Virus record (IMG/VR): IMGVR_UViG_3300005253_000249
Span: 1-20,945 of that record
From: a virus
DNA length: 20,945 nt
Reading direction: 5' to 3' (one strand)
Notes under the pieces: generated by a model
What the model was told of the DNA's origin: nothing
What the model saw: the letters and a program-made list of their open reading frames with translations, nothing else
The model's database searches: none
Made by a program: the position numbers and the translations under genes
Shown here: positions 13,560 to 20,190 of the stretch, piece after piece
Layout: each line of letters begins with the position of its first letter
Position numbering within the stretch: the stretch's first letter is position 1

Positions 13560-13931
13560 CTACCCGAGATACTCGATAGCTCGCGCCAGTAACGCCCCAT
13601 CATCGTCAAAAAGGCCGAGGCCGATATTGCACTTATGGCACAGCAGGCCTCGCACCACTCCCGTCAGATGGCAATGGTCTATCGCCAGAAGCCTTGATCC
13701 GTGCTTTTGCTTTCCTTGACATATGGCGCATCTCCCCTTCTGGGAGATAAACATCTCTTCGTATTCCTCTAGCGAGATGCCGAAGTAGTGCTTAATCTTG
13801 GCGCGCCTTGCTATGATGCTTTGTTTTTTGGGATTATCGCGCCGCCATTTTTTCATGTAGTGCTTCTTGCATAGCCCCTTGGCGGAACCGATTTGGTTAC
13901 ACGCGGTGTCGCACCCGTCGACCTTGCACAC
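13560..13931 (-). CDS. HNH homing-type endonuclease, endonuclease VII-like
   Basis: This 123-residue protein starts at GTG 13931, overlapping the co-chaperonin TAG by one base (TAGTG). Residues 2-24 hold cysteines and a histidine (CKVDGCDTAC, then LCKKHYMKKW) of an N-terminal zinc finger. Residues about 47-123 match recombination endonuclease VII-type HNH enzymes: YFGISLEEYEEMF, a CAIC pair, LAIDHCHLTGVVRGLLCHK, then CNIGLGLFDDD. The zinc ligands are the CxxC pairs at 68/71 and 98/101; the DH pair is the catalytic core. It cuts DNA and probably spreads by homing. The 122-base gap after it, before the scaffold gene, has no clear gene and no terminator. Insertion into the co-chaperonin to scaffold junction is inferred. 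Confidence 0.85.
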   Translation of the reverse strand: MCKVDGCDTACNQIGSAKGLCKKHYMKKWRRDNPKKQSIIARRAKIKHYFGISLEEYEEMFISQKGRCAICQGKQKHGSRLLAIDHCHLTGVVRGLLCHKCNIGLGLFDDDGALLARAIEYLG

Positions 13932-14745: not shown

Positions 14746-17171
14746 TATTCAGTCTTCAGGGCCGCGGCTTTTTCGGCGGTCTTCAGGACGTTCTCCGCTG
14801 ACTTGGCTTTGGCCGACTGGTCGGCCGCCCTGCCGTCGATTGCGAGTTGCTGCCCGGCTTCTTTGGCCGTTATGGACATCTTCTGCTGATGCTGCTCGTC
14901 CTTCTGCTGTAGACCCTGCTTGTGGTCTTGATCGCTGTGCTCCAGTTTCTGTTCGTGCGCAGCCTGCGCCTGCTCTTCGTCAGACGGCTCTGGCCCCTGG
15001 GCCGGCGGCGGCGGTGCGATGCTGTTTGCAACGGCCCGCGCTACCGCGTTGTCAAGTTCGATATCCACGTCTTCCTCGATGTCCTTGAAATCGGTATCCG
15101 GTAGTGACGTACCCAGTTCCTGCTCGATGCGCAGCCTGTACGAGTGAGCGTGATGCTCAGTCAAGTGGGCATGCATATTCAGCATGGCCGATTGAAGTAG
15201 CTGCTCGTCAAGTCCCATGCCGGCAACTTCCTGCTGGAACAGATTGTGGGCCTGGATGTGGCTCTCGTGATCCTGTTCCGGGAACGCCTTCACAGCGCCT
15301 CCCGTTAGCATCAGTTGGTTCTCGGTTACCGGGTCCAGCCGCTTGGTTGATGTGTCCGGAAGTAGCCGATCCGGATCGGGCGCGCGTAGGGCGCGCAACA
15401 TATCCAAGTGCGCCATCCGGCGAGACTCCAGAGTATACAGCTCTGGGTCCTCGCGTATCAGCTCCAGGATTGCCTGGGCCTTAGCGACACGCTGGATGTT
15501 GGAATAGATGTTCGGGTCTGAGATGGGCAGAATGTCGACGCGGCCGTCAAAGTCCTGGGCCATAACGGTTTGCTCTCCGCCGTTGACTTCAAACGGATAC
15601 CCCTCTTCAGGCATGTGCTCAAAGTTGAGCCGTGCGAGCAACTTGAATTCGAAGCGCGCCGCTTTGTGCATCCGCTTATGGATGCCGGAATAAATCTTGG
15701 AGCCTTGCTCGATCAGGGCCAGTGTAGTTCCAACCGGTCCCTTGTTGTCGCCGGCACCGGTCATCGCCTCCGTAGTGGAAGCAAACTCCTGAATACCGTT
15801 AACCAGCAACTCAAGCGTGTGGAATAGGGCGGGAGACGGCTCCTTGAACGGAGGTGTGTAGAATGACTTCGCGAGATCTTCGGCCGTCATGTCCACGTCT
15901 TTCCAGACGCCAGGCGTAAATACGAACTCGCCAGCTAGTCGCGATTCTTTCGACTTGAACCCACCCTGAAGGGACGCTGTGGCAGAACCATCAAGCAGGG
16001 CTCGCAATGCACCAGAAGCCGCCTTACCAAGTGAACCGATGATGTGGAGGTATCCCCAGCCATAGAAGCCAAGTCCTGGCAAAAACTTATAGTGGATGAA
16101 GTGAACTCTTTTCTTGCGTCGATCATCGTCTTCCCTCCATAGTCTGCGGATGGCGAGAACTTCGCCGGACTCCGCTTCAATTGTAACAACGTACGGCAGC
16201 GCTACCCTGTGTGCGCCGCTCTCGGCCGCATCGGGCTCATCGAACTCTGCGAAAATCAATTCGGCATGACACTCGTAAATCTGGTAAACAACGTCTTCTT
16301 CTGCGCGGAACGGTTCCCGGTTATCCGAGATGTCTTTTATGTCGTCCGTGTCCGGGCCGACCGAACCCCTTGTCATTGTTCCCTGGGGGTCCAACTGATC
16401 TGAGTCAATGAACTCTCCCGAAACAATGCGTGAGTTTATTTCATTTCCGTACAGCTTGTATTTGTGGGTGTATCGAGGGCAGGTCTTCAGCGAGGTTGCG
16501 TCGTACGGAACAACGAGGTCCTCGGCCGAGATGAATCGAGACAGTGCCATGTCCTGTGTCTGGTCGTAGTACACTTTCTTGAACGCGCTGCCAGAGTAGG
16601 GAAGATACATGCACATCTGATCGGTATGATCGAAGTACTCGTCGTCCTCTTCCACGAGCATGTAGTTCATGAACTCCTGCACGCGCATCGACTGCTCTTC
16701 CCGATCCTGGTCAGACTTGCCAACCACTTTCGTTTTGACCGGCCCTTCAGACGGGAATAGCTCTTCCATGGCGTTCGCTTGGAAACGAACCATGGCTTCT
16801 GCGATTCCCGGATGGGTTACCGTCGAGCTGCCGTCGAACGCGCTAGATTCTGTGGGGATTTCTTCGACGCCGATTATCTCAAGGCCTTCGATAAGTCGGC
16901 GCTTCCAGGTAGCTCTCGACCCTTCGTCTTCTTGAACCCATTCGACGATACGAGTACCGAGCGCTATTCGGTTTGAACCGTCAATGTATATTGCAAGGTT
17001 TTCGTCGTGTTCGCCGGTTGGCTCCTCGACCTGTCCGAGATCTCCGCTGAAGTCAACAACGATGTCGTCGCCTTCCTGCCTTATGGAAGCCCCATCAACT
17101 ACGCGGGCCTCAAGGCCGTCAGCCTCCATCTCTTCAAGATAGCCGGTCTTCTGTTTGTTTTTCTTAGCCAT
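14745..17171 (-). CDS. Portal protein (P22-like)
   Basis: This 808-residue protein starts at ATG 17171, overlapping the preceding TAA by one base. It shows a long N-terminal acidic part, then WVQEDEGSRATWKRRLIEGL and AEAMVRFQANAMEELFPSEG. Further on come CMYLPYSGSAFKKVYYD, LVVPYDATSL, then KFLPGLGFYGWGYLHIIGSL. These match the order of portal-type wing/stem motifs seen in P22-like portals. Residues about 450-520 have EFASTTEAMTGAGDNKGPVG, a common portal loop. The last 160 residues are rich in Q, E, K and A with long helices (HEQKLEHSDQDHKQGLQQK), which could form a barrel like the one at the top of the P22 portal. It forms the DNA-entry ring at one head vertex and docks the terminase. Confidence 0.88.
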   Translation of the reverse strand: MAKKNKQKTGYLEEMEADGLEARVVDGASIRQEGDDIVVDFSGDLGQVEEPTGEHDENLAIYIDGSNRIALGTRIVEWVQEDEGSRATWKRRLIEGLEIIGVEEIPTESSAFDGSSTVTHPGIAEAMVRFQANAMEELFPSEGPVKTKVVGKSDQDREEQSMRVQEFMNYMLVEEDDEYFDHTDQMCMYLPYSGSAFKKVYYDQTQDMALSRFISAEDLVVPYDATSLKTCPRYTHKYKLYGNEINSRIVSGEFIDSDQLDPQGTMTRGSVGPDTDDIKDISDNREPFRAEEDVVYQIYECHAELIFAEFDEPDAAESGAHRVALPYVVTIEAESGEVLAIRRLWREDDDRRKKRVHFIHYKFLPGLGFYGWGYLHIIGSLGKAASGALRALLDGSATASLQGGFKSKESRLAGEFVFTPGVWKDVDMTAEDLAKSFYTPPFKEPSPALFHTLELLVNGIQEFASTTEAMTGAGDNKGPVGTTLALIEQGSKIYSGIHKRMHKAARFEFKLLARLNFEHMPEEGYPFEVNGGEQTVMAQDFDGRVDILPISDPNIYSNIQRVAKAQAILELIREDPELYTLESRRMAHLDMLRALRAPDPDRLLPDTSTKRLDPVTENQLMLTGGAVKAFPEQDHESHIQAHNLFQQEVAGMGLDEQLLQSAMLNMHAHLTEHHAHSYRLRIEQELGTSLPDTDFKDIEEDVDIELDNAVARAVANSIAPPPPAQGPEPSDEEQAQAAHEQKLEHSDQDHKQGLQQKDEQHQQKMSITAKEAGQQLAIDGRAADQSAKAKSAENVLKTAEKAAALKTE

Positions 17172-17452
17172 TAGTGTGTCAGGTAACTACGGTTTTCTCT
17201 CGGGGCGGTTATCAGTTTTTTGAATTGCATGTTGGACTCGTACAGACCAAGCAGGCGATTCAATGCTGGGCGCAGCACCGGCTCTTCAGGCTGGTTCAGA
17301 TAAAAGAACGCGGGCTCGCCGTTTTTCCGTATTGCGCACACCCCAATTCCGTCCAGGTTCCCGGACAGGAGATCTCCCATCAGACCATCGAGGTGTCGGG
17401 CGACCATCATTTCAGCGGGGGTGGGCATGTATTCTTCGGTCATCGTGACCAT
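17171..17452 (-). CDS. Small protein of unknown function between terminase and portal
   Basis: The 93-residue product starts at ATG 17452; an internal ATG three codons later (MTEEYMP) is an alternative. No clear ribosome binding site precedes either. The sequence is partly helical (EMMVARHLDGLMGDLLSG), followed by IGVCAIRKNGEPAFFYLNQ and a C-terminal helix (NRLLGLYESNMQFKKLI). The pattern strand-KNG-strand suggests a small alpha/beta fold, but I do not recognise a family. The stop overlaps the portal ATG as TAATG, so coupling is likely. Genes in this position in other phages are varied; a role in packaging or portal assembly is only possible by position. Confidence 0.6.
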   Translation of the reverse strand: MVTMTEEYMPTPAEMMVARHLDGLMGDLLSGNLDGIGVCAIRKNGEPAFFYLNQPEEPVLRPALNRLLGLYESNMQFKKLITAPRENRSYLTH

Positions 17453-17465
17453 ACTACAGCAAACA

Positions 17466-17876
17466 TTAGCCGTACGTCTCTACGATCCACTCGTTTGCGA
17501 TGGGCAAAAAAACCTCCTGCCCCCAGTCGCCACAGGCAAGATTTATCGCCCATAGAACCATTCTCGTGTTCTCCGGCGTGTATCCCTTGCTGCTGTCCAT
17601 ACGATCCAGGCTTGGGGATTTTGGACCCCTTCCGCCCGTCAGCTCGAACCCAAGCCCGGTTGCTTCACACACTCCGTTTAGCTTTTCCTCGATCCACTCT
17701 TTGGTAAGGGTTGCATCAAGGCCCCGGACCTTGGCCGTCCTTCGATGGCTGTGCCACATCTCTACGGCCCGCCCATGAGTGGTTGCTCTGTAAGCCCTAG
17801 ATCGCGTCACGTATGTGTCCCTGTTTCTCAGGTACTTTGCGCGGTCGGTTATTTTTTTCCTTGCCTTGTTACCCAT
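17466..17876 (-). CDS. HNH-type homing endonuclease (GYTPEN group)
   Basis: This 136-residue protein starts at ATG 17876, which overlaps the terminase end by eight bases, with AGAGG five bases upstream. The basic N-terminal region (NKARKKITDRAKYLRNRD) leads into WHSHRRTAKVRGLDATLT, then VCEATGLGFELTGG. The signature KSPSLDRMDSSKGYTPENTR follows, and then VLWAINLACGDWG. This C..TG..F, PSLDR.D..KGYT.EN pattern is well known in free-standing phage endonucleases and differs from the endonuclease VII type. It lies directly behind the terminase and in front of a small unknown gene, so it is likely a mobile gene placed between two genes without breaking either. DNA target unknown. Confidence 0.8.
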   Translation of the reverse strand: MGNKARKKITDRAKYLRNRDTYVTRSRAYRATTHGRAVEMWHSHRRTAKVRGLDATLTKEWIEEKLNGVCEATGLGFELTGGRGPKSPSLDRMDSSKGYTPENTRMVLWAINLACGDWGQEVFLPIANEWIVETYG

Positions 17877-19494
17877 AGATTCCTCTCGTTCTTCTTGGTT
17901 TGAAAAGATTCATGTCATCTCCGTCCTCGTCGAAGTACTCGATGCTGCCCATTCGGCGCAACCAGGCGAGCGCCATCACAACGGTGTCGACGTAATCATC
18001 GTACTGGCCAACTGGGAACTTCGCGCATTCTTCAATTACGTCTGACGCCTCCAGGTGCCCAGGCACGTAAAATATGCAGCCCTGCTCCAACGGGCCGGAG
18101 CTGATGTGCGCGCGCATGGTTTTGTCCTTACCTTTCGGGTCAATTCCCCTCACGCGAACGCCTGACTTGCGCATCTCCTGGATCAGTGAATGGCCCGACG
18201 CCTTCTTCTCGATCAGGACAAAGTCAGGGTCCCAGTCCTTGTATGAGTTTATCGCCTCACGTCGGAGGTCCGGGAACGCAATCTTCTCGTGCCACGCCTC
18301 CAGCAAAATAACGCACCTCTTCTCTTCTCGTCTGATAATGACACCAGTAGTCGGATGTATGAGCTCGTGTGCGAACAAGAACACACCCCAGGTAGTTCGT
18401 GCTGAAAAGTCATTTTCCTCTTCCTCCTCAAACGCAGTGTCGTATATTTGTATGGTCGCTTCGCACTCCGGCATCGGCCGGCGCTCGTGCGATAGTGGAT
18501 GCCACTCTGGCCACTCCCACGGAATCCACCAAGACCTTTTCAAGATCAGGCCGTCATCGGCTGCCGGGTCCTGCTGGTACTGGGAGTTGTAATCCCTTTG
18601 GCTCATTCCCACCGGGGGCTTCAATGCGATTGTGGCTTCCTTATCGAGTCGGCCCGGACATAGCAGGTCCCCCTCCTTTTGACGGGGGTCCGAAAACACA
18701 ACCGGGGGCTCGTACCCAGGGTCTTCCTGGTGCTTTTTGATATCTTTCGGCAGGGAAAGAATGCACCGCGTCACCGCGCGGAACTCGTTCGGCATGACAA
18801 GGTGAACCCATTTTCCGCGCTCCTCGATGGTACAGCGCCCCTCCTTCCGAATAACGTGGCCGATGATGTCTGCCTCATGGGTGCGCTGTCCAACGTGTAC
18901 GATGCGTCCAGTATTCTGGTTGTTCAACCTGGATCTCATGGCGTTGTCGTACCACTCGATAACACCCTCTCGCTTGACATCGGAGTGGACATCGCGCGCG
19001 TTATGTGAATCATCCAACAAGATGATATCTCCGCCCTCGCCGGTCGTTCGTCCGGCTGAACTAATGGCGATCCTGTGTCCGCCAACGGTATTGGAGTAAC
19101 GAGACTTCATGTTCTCGTCAGCGCGGATTGTGAACCGGTCGCCCCATCGATCCTTGAACCAAGGACACTCGATAAGTCGGCGAGACTTCAGGGAGTCGCG
19201 GGTGGAGAGATCAGCGTCATACGAGGAGGTTAGCCACTGGATTTCTGGATGGTCGATCCACTCCCACACTGGCCAGGCCACGGAACACGACAAGGACTTC
19301 GTCATGCGCGGCGGCATCGATACAATTAGTCGGCGGATTTCGCCCTGGGATACGTACGAGAGAAACTCGCACAGCACTTCGAGATGCCACGTTTCAACAA
19401 ACACGGCGGGGTCCATAAACGGCCACGCGTCCTTGAAGAACCGGAAGAGATTGCGACGGGCCAGCTCACCCTGTATCTGTGTTAAATCTCCCAA
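17869..19494 (-). CDS. terL: Terminase large subunit
   Basis: This ATP-driven packaging motor and nuclease is 541 residues from TTG 19494, one base after the upstream stop, with GGAG seven bases before it. A longer in-frame TTG at 19527 lies inside the HNH gene and is less likely. Counting from 19494: the ATPase part holds a Walker A-like MPPRMTKSLS near 60-69, with T in place of the usual G, and Walker B GGDIILLDDSHN near 154-165. A C-loop-like segment follows (IVHVGQRTHEADI). The RNase H-like nuclease has IYDTAF (D352), DFVLIEKK (E429) and a YDDYVDTVVMAL helix (D500/D503), the expected acidic set. The C-terminus ends with KPRRTRGIYG. The first seven codons repeat, in recoded form, the start of the HNH gene upstream. 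Confidence 0.93.
   Translation of the reverse strand: MGDLTQIQGELARRNLFRFFKDAWPFMDPAVFVETWHLEVLCEFLSYVSQGEIRRLIVSMPPRMTKSLSCSVAWPVWEWIDHPEIQWLTSSYDADLSTRDSLKSRRLIECPWFKDRWGDRFTIRADENMKSRYSNTVGGHRIAISSAGRTTGEGGDIILLDDSHNARDVHSDVKREGVIEWYDNAMRSRLNNQNTGRIVHVGQRTHEADIIGHVIRKEGRCTIEERGKWVHLVMPNEFRAVTRCILSLPKDIKKHQEDPGYEPPVVFSDPRQKEGDLLCPGRLDKEATIALKPPVGMSQRDYNSQYQQDPAADDGLILKRSWWIPWEWPEWHPLSHERRPMPECEATIQIYDTAFEEEEENDFSARTTWGVFLFAHELIHPTTGVIIRREEKRCVILLEAWHEKIAFPDLRREAINSYKDWDPDFVLIEKKASGHSLIQEMRKSGVRVRGIDPKGKDKTMRAHISSGPLEQGCIFYVPGHLEASDVIEECAKFPVGQYDDYVDTVVMALAWLRRMGSIEYFDEDGDDMNLFKPRRTRGIYG
19474..19494 (-). repeat. Recoded copy of the HNH gene start (partner at 19883-19903)
   Basis: Minus-strand codons TTG GGA GAT TTA ACA CAG ATA at the terminase start encode (M)GDLTQI. 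The codons ATG GGT GAC CTC ACC CAA ATA at the start of the upstream HNH gene (19903 to 19883) encode MGDLTQI. The peptide is the same, but 7 of 21 bases differ, almost all at third positions. Similarity stops after the seventh codon. Confidence 0.8.
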
Positions 19495-19495
19495 C

Positions 19496-19903
19496 CTATC
19501 GCTCCAAATATCTGGTGACCTTACCAAGCGCCTCCGCGTTATCCCCTAAAAGCCCTAACCCAAGATTGCATTTATTGCACAGCCATCCCCGAAACTCACC
19601 GGCTTCATGGCTGTGGTCTAAATCTAAACTCCTTTGCCCTGAGGGTGATCCGCAGATTTCGCAAAATTCAGGACATGCGCGAGTGGGCTCTGGAAGCCCC
19701 TTAGCCCTCCGCTTGTGAGCGGCTACCCTTTCCGGGTTCCCTATTCTCCATGCGCGAAGCTTGTTTTTGTTGCACTGAATGCACCCCTTGTTGGAAATAA
19801 GCCTCTCGCAAGCATGGCCGTACCGACAGAGCCGCCCCGTGAAGTATCGCTTGAGCCCAAGAAGCTTGGCCTCCTTGCGGGATATTTGGGTGAGGTCACC
19901 CAT
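19496..19903 (-). CDS. HNH homing-type endonuclease at the terminase start
   Basis: This 135-residue protein starts at ATG 19903, overlapping the upstream stop as TAATG. After MGDLTQ it carries a region I know from phage HNH genes: ISRKEAKLLGLKRYFTGRL, CRYGH, then CIQC, likely a zinc finger. The HNH part has CEICGS, LDLDHSHEAGEFRGWLC and CNLGLGLL, with two CxxC zinc pairs (81/84 and 109/112) and the DH catalytic pair. The end (GDNAEALGKVTRYLER) is typical of endonuclease VII-like enzymes. Its first seven residues are the same as those of the terminase that follows, and its stop and the terminase TTG are one base apart. It probably arrived by homing and reused the old terminase start signals. 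Confidence 0.87.
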   Translation of the reverse strand: MGDLTQISRKEAKLLGLKRYFTGRLCRYGHACERLISNKGCIQCNKNKLRAWRIGNPERVAAHKRRAKGLPEPTRACPEFCEICGSPSGQRSLDLDHSHEAGEFRGWLCNKCNLGLGLLGDNAEALGKVTRYLER

Positions 19904-20190
19904 TATTCTTCCTCATAGTCTTCGGGGTCGTTGAACGAGTCATCGTCCGTGTCGTACACAAGATTGCGTTCGTTTTTGTAGTGCTCGCCTCTGCCAATCA
20001 GGGGATTCTTCCGAGGCGGCCGAACTGTGACCTTCCTGGGTTTTCTCGGATCACGCGGCCTGCGCGTCCTTACGCGCGGCGCACTGGTTTCTAGCTGCTC
20101 GACTTCCGGACCTGCGCCTGGAACCCTGAAATGCTCAGTGACGGTAGCGGGGCACCCCGTTTGACCGCTTTTGTTTGATCTTGAGGACAC
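19903..20190 (-). CDS. Small charged protein of unknown function
   Basis: The 95-residue product starts at GTG 20190, where GGAGG lies four bases upstream. It has a basic, proline-rich middle (RTRRPRDPRKPRKVTVRPPR) and an acidic end (DTDDDSFNDPEDYEEE). The basic part could bind DNA or an acidic partner, but no family is recognised. It is not a clear small terminase subunit, because no helix-turn-helix or oligomerisation pattern is visible, though it occupies the slot where that gene is often found. The stop overlaps the HNH start as TAATG. Its first 100 bases overlap the doubtful ORF upstream in another frame. Confidence 0.6.
   Translation of the reverse strand: MSSRSNKSGQTGCPATVTEHFRVPGAGPEVEQLETSAPRVRTRRPRDPRKPRKVTVRPPRKNPLIGRGEHYKNERNLVYDTDDDSFNDPEDYEEE

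Follow-up and report, generated by a model that had tools for sequence, protein, structure and literature searches.

How the start of one gene came to stand twice, in front of two different proteins, is the question raised by a nuclease gene and a terminase gene that lie side by side in a viral genome and begin with the same peptide spelled in different codons. Free-standing homing endonuclease genes of phages are usually located between genes or split the genes in which they lie. The DNA analyzed here, referred to as the window, has a length of 20,945 bases and comprises positions 1-20,945 of a single metagenomic contig, IMGVR_UViG_3300005253_000249.

Results

The same peptide at two adjacent gene starts

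On the minus strand of the window, a small charged gene is followed by the nuclease gene and then by the gene of the terminase large subunit (Table 1). The TAA of the small charged gene overlaps the nuclease ATG (TAATG), and the terminase TTG is located one base past the nuclease TAG stop, with a GGAG seven bases upstream. A search with the small charged gene itself returned no homologues.

Direct reading of the sequence bears out the preliminary description of this DNA in that both genes start with MGDLTQI in different spelling. After the seventh codon the nuclease gene continues with TCC CGC AAG GAG, its translation beginning MGDLTQISRKEAKLLGLKRYFTG..., and the terminase gene with CAG GGT GAG, its translation beginning (M)GDLTQIQGELARR... 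The two starts have the same base at 14 of 21 positions and differ at the remaining 7, the longest identical run being 4 bases. All six residues past the initiator are the same but five of the six codons differ, only the ATA (Ile) being common to both copies, and every base change outside the start codon is synonymous.

Table 1. Features of the nuclease-terminase region, in positions of the window.
Feature	Position	Strand	Basis
Small charged gene	19903..20190	-	Sequence; L042 has a weak homologue, RPRDPR..RRNPLI, upstream of the terminase
Putative captured native terminase start, now nuclease codons 1-7	19883..19903	-	ATG GGT GAC CTC ACC CAA ATA (MGDLTQI); peptide matches terminase starts of HNH-free relatives
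Nuclease gene, Endonuclease VII-type homing endonuclease candidate, 135 aa	19496..19903	-	PF02945, PHROG 2633 and 1081, Hpy99I (3fc3), F-CphI motif
GGAG, likely terminase ribosome-binding site, within the nuclease gene 3' end	19502..19505	-	Sequence
Putative replacement terminase start	19474..19494	-	TTG GGA GAT TTA ACA CAG ATA ((M)GDLTQI); synonymous with the captured copy
Terminase large subunit, 541 aa	17869..19494	-	PHROG 38, E 3e-70; Pfam PF17289; relatives 71-93% identical

By our own arithmetic, two unrelated six-residue peptides agree with a probability of about 5e-8. The window pair obtains a score of 32, compared with at most 29 for 326 mismatched pairs drawn from 109 nuclease relatives. 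A six-mer screen was in addition run over the first tens of residues of neighbouring ORFs (3341 pairs from 268 loci, 2.0 Mb), in which the other early shared six-mers were paralogous or DNA-identical repeats, plus one chance match away from the starts. The mismatched pairs together with this screen reject a chance match of the two starts. No second such case was present among the approximately 109 relatives of the nuclease N-terminal domain or among the neighbouring ORF pairs. Two candidates were discarded: the shared FGRRYT of L233 pairs a 212-aa protein of unknown function with the capsid-like gene behind it, neither of which is the nuclease gene of L233, and the score of L217 lies at background. 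Separately, L208 contains tandem paralogous small ORFs with common MTDNSWPDPE.PGVPLNPEKDGWHW-type starts.

An Endonuclease VII-type nuclease

The first of the two genes had been described as an HNH gene. It does encode a nuclease, but one of the Endonuclease VII / F-CphI type and not a classical HNH enzyme, as indicated by matches to Pfam PF02945 (Endonuclease_7, E 1e-14), to PHROG 2633 and 1081, both named endonuclease VII, and to the restriction enzyme Hpy99I (3fc3, E 2e-8). Homing endonucleases of the F-CphI family are defined by the pattern CX2C, DHxH, R, CX2C, N (PMC6083498). Compared with the Endo VII-type (F-CphI-like) series CX2-4C, DHxH, R, CX2C, N, the nuclease carries each element, in the form CX2C-DHxH-R-CX2C-N (C81, C84, D96, H97, H99, R105, C109, C112, N113), and judging from this motif it has retained both the catalytic residues and the zinc residues of the F-CphI/Endo VII type.

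The N-terminal domain of the nuclease, ISRKEAxxLGLKRYFTG, occurs in many phages. In its relatives, the gene start is usually three or four residues ahead of ISRKEA, and the residues at this place are unrelated (KI, NI, GV, EI); the Ile before SRKEA is conserved in the family, and the residues of the leader are not part of what is conserved. In agreement with the preliminary description, related nuclease genes elsewhere do not start with MGDLTQI: the peptide GDLTQI is absent from all of the approximately 109 relatives examined, and a degenerate search of IMG/VR found no other [DN]LTQI joined to a SRKEA-like motif.

Terminase relatives without the nuclease gene

Relatives of the terminase were collected by a degenerate peptide search and an alignment search, which gave eleven with readable 5' ends (71-80% identical); L001, L002 and L059 were left out as uninformative because their 5' ends are missing, and genome contigs yielded distant terminases only. 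L001 opens, at positions 1-132, with the part of this terminase gene that encodes residues 274-317 in inverted orientation, apparently a chimera of assembly or amplification.

The nuclease gene is absent upstream of the terminase in all eleven relatives. Their terminases begin, as had been anticipated, within a few codons with [DN]LTQIQ right after the preceding gene, the common form being M(x)n[DN]LTQIQ[GA]ELARR, located directly or a few bases past the preceding stop codon, with [DN]LTQI exact in nine. The nearest intact locus, L042, has MSGDLTQIQGELARR; in this locus, the small charged gene is separated from the terminase by an extra ORF of 50 codons. The downstream neighbour (a homologue of the gene at 17171-17452) is kept in 11/11, followed by the portal where the contig reaches, and the upstream Band_7 gene is found in six. 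Based on these starts and on the lack of GDLTQI in nuclease relatives, the GDLTQI peptide is the native terminase start, and the nuclease gene is located in the terminase gene after codon 7, where it uses this native start. The TAATG junction of the small charged gene would then originally have led into the terminase. Two findings had been named as speaking against such an insertion, namely other terminase starts in HNH-free relatives and MGDLTQI starts of related nucleases at unrelated sites; the relatives' 5' ends and the other nuclease starts were both inspected, and neither finding was made. The argument drawn from a rare TTG start carries little weight, as L058 and L275 also appear to begin the terminase with TTG natively.

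The position next to the terminase gene would also suit a packaging-associated nuclease, like HK97 gp74 beside its terminase, that is not a mobile gene, and such nucleases can assist packaging (discussed in PMC10448857). This is nevertheless very improbable, given the absence of the gene in each of the eleven relatives, its Endo VII type, and the fact that no close homologue beside other terminases was found. We regard a location of the nuclease ORF within a self-splicing intron or an intein of the terminase as extremely improbable. Joining codon 7 to codon 8 does give MGDLTQIQGELARR, phage terminase introns are known from ICP1 (PMC10448857), and L060 has an intein-like insertion; however, the nuclease ORF is closed by a stop codon of its own and leaves fewer than 50 bases uncovered, and a second GDLTQI preceded by a separate ribosome-binding site would not be expected of an intron. 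A group I or group II intron was rejected on the same small number of non-ORF bases and on the search of Rfam, which gave no match around the nuclease ORF at E values up to 1.

Probable native and substitute copies of the start

The nuclease copy of the start is as close or closer in bases to each of ten relatives than the terminase copy, with a small margin of one to three bases of 15. The third base of the Asp/Asn codon is C in all ten relatives compared and in the nuclease copy (GAC), but T in the terminase copy (GAT). The TTA of the terminase copy represents 2% of the Leu codons in the window and is found in no relative. From these comparisons, the terminase's present copy looks like the replacement, which is a lean rather than proof.

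The replacement could owe its spelling to translation initiation, in that the weak TTG start selected AT-rich early codons after the insertion. Codons 2-7 of the terminase copy have a GC3 of 0.17, and gene starts in the window are in general AT-richer than gene bodies, with an average GC3 of 0.45 in codons 2-7 versus 0.61 in the rest; a value of 0.17 or lower is reached by 5 of 23 genes, i.e. by four others. As AT-rich early codons are common in the window, initiation could explain part of the terminase spelling. Yet the TTG starts of L058 and L275 accompany GC-richer codons, and the origin of the duplicate is left unexplained, making this unlikely as the account of the locus.

A further route is duplication followed by drift, in which repair of staggered ends doubled 21 bases and the terminase copy gained synonymous changes only, as the peptide was needed. 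This accounts for the same peptide in both copies and for the common ATA, and the terminase N-terminus is indeed conserved. The difficulty lies in the nuclease leader, which is unconserved in its family but has no amino acid change even though five of six codons differ synonymously; our own rough estimate is that neutral change at equal rates would have produced about ten amino acid changes. We therefore hold duplication with drift to be rather unlikely. Of their six codons the two copies share one. Different phages of the group have a codon identity of 0.40-0.47 at conserved residues; at that rate, one or fewer of six codons would agree with a probability of about 0.18 (own arithmetic), which places the difference within the range expected for alleles of two diverged phages. 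Since the copies diverge as between phages and the nuclease leader is without amino acid change, a donor allele is favored, and the terminase copy looks like a start from such an allele and not like a drifted duplicate. No donor allele with the TTA/GAT spelling was found, and there is no sign of a longer foreign tract past terminase codon 7, identity to relatives and GC3 being roughly uniform along the gene. Thus, what the preliminary description held about an insertion after codon 7, with the nuclease keeping the old start signals and the terminase obtaining a new start, stands; its purposeful recoding is less secure, as the spelling may be merely that of a donor allele, the copies being about as different as those of separate phages.

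The window derives from a metagenomic contig, and the related contig L001 starts with an inverted chimeric terminase piece, so an assembly or amplification chimera was also considered, joining an upstream part with the native start to a phage whose nuclease precedes an ordinary TTG GDLTQI terminase. This is decidedly unlikely: the join is in frame and placed exactly at the Ile of the nuclease family, the gene order is common to the relatives, and the approximately three bases common at the join are too few for an assembler overlap.

Discussion

Proposed mechanism

We propose that insertion, a captured start and replacement by a donor allele together form the best explanation of the locus, and we consider this probable as a whole. 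A free-standing Endonuclease VII-type homing endonuclease gene would have entered the terminase gene between codons 7 and 8, with the nuclease frame fused to the native start of the terminase through the Ile codon ATA, i.e. the family's conserved Ile before SRKEA. In conjunction, the native TAATG start and the first terminase codons would now drive the nuclease. The inserted unit would end with a ribosome-binding site, the TTG start and a divergent copy of seven terminase codons, which would allow the terminase to be made whole. This divergent copy most likely stems from the terminase allele of a diverged donor phage and would have moved together with the nuclease gene.

In an insertion-free phage, the nuclease would cut at or near the unbroken terminase start. 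With the donor as template for repair, the phage would then acquire the nuclease gene, the ribosome-binding site and the substitute start, after which the insertion would interrupt the left side of the target and the changed spelling its right side. The cut site may lie away from the insertion point, as free-standing endonucleases of the T4 type mostly cleave at a distance of hundreds of bases from the gene that encodes them (PMC2988022). The different spelling probably protects the restored gene against the nuclease and prevents recombination between the copies, as the same spelling would presumably recreate the target and form a repeat of 21 bases that permits deletion. Nuclease activity, mobility, donor origin and immunity are what we infer in this scheme. 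A second phage with a nuclease-terminase joint was not found, and the junction is known from one metagenomic contig.

Comparison with known systems

In yeast, WHO elements exchange the 3' end of FBA1 for that of a resistant allele, the old end remaining next to the endonuclease gene (PMC7282813). As proposed for the phage, these elements of Torulaspora and Lachancea are homing units that bring a divergent gene end and restore the invaded gene. They differ in that a 3' end of about 400 bases is concerned, the enzyme is of an intein/HO-like kind and the old fragment can remain untranslated, whereas in the phage it would be the 5' end, over seven codons, with the old fragment serving as the translated start of the nuclease. 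A WHO element proper, an HO/intein-derived zinc-finger protein at FBA1, was rejected as a classification, the phage having an Endo VII family protein in a terminase. Mobile ORFs in Glomus atp6, atp9, cox2 and nad3 and in Allomyces atp6 are likewise endonuclease ORFs in genes with a protein-conserved but DNA-divergent end (PMC3630166), and the divergent ends in Glomus mitochondria have been attributed to a foreign donor (PMC3630166). These are unlike the phage case in being C-terminal and longer, in their LAGLIDADG or GIY-YIG enzymes and in their mitochondrial location (PMC3630166). Two features of a gene-end-replacing homing element are found in the window, where the nuclease gene lies in a target gene with a second copy of the gene end, and the replacement end is diverged in DNA and conserved in protein. 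By analogy, the logic would be common to the WHO and Glomus elements, here at the 5' end, in a phage and with an Endo VII-type enzyme.

Among phage systems, the F-CphI family shares the CX2C-DHxH-R-CX2C-N domain, the free-standing form and the place beside an essential gene, but F-CphI is protected by an intron in the target gene (PMC6083498), a role that the respelled start would take here. Aeh1 mobE in nrdA and T4 mobA in the topoisomerase gene are free-standing endonuclease genes in essential coding sequences, and Aeh1 mobE also resembles the phage case in its UAAUG coupling (PMC2988022). Their host genes, however, stay split into two proteins (PMC2988022), while here the missing piece would be supplied again. 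No phage precedent for the replacement of a gene start was found in the literature searched, which is not proof that none exists.

The locus suggests a third way for such genes, i.e. to settle in a coding sequence, appropriate its start and return a replacement for it. If true, this would explain how a nuclease can reside where an essential gene is conserved and do the phage no harm, and it would provide a parallel with the gene-end-replacing elements of eukaryotes. Going further, a phage counterpart of WHO elements can be envisaged, in which a nuclease enters an essential gene at its 5' end, takes over the start signals of this gene and brings a synonymous start that both repairs and immunizes, as a general and overlooked way of life inside coding sequences; this broader reading is tentative, and we lean slightly against it.

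An intein-like insertion and further nuclease genes

The terminase gene in L060/L275 (IMGVR_UViG_3300037755_000910) is interrupted in the Walker A region by an intein-like insertion, which ends with ...SFVADGLIVSN, suggesting that the same gene has been invaded at another site. In the window, a second HNH-like gene (17466-17876; PHROG 3322) is located directly behind the terminase and has no match in the relatives examined, so that the terminase appears bracketed by two lineage-specific nuclease genes. A third nuclease gene, again of the Endonuclease VII type, lies at 13560-13931 behind a GroES-like gene; its homologues occur near the same place in L042 (11792-12055, 51% identical) and in L058, pointing to an older insertion.
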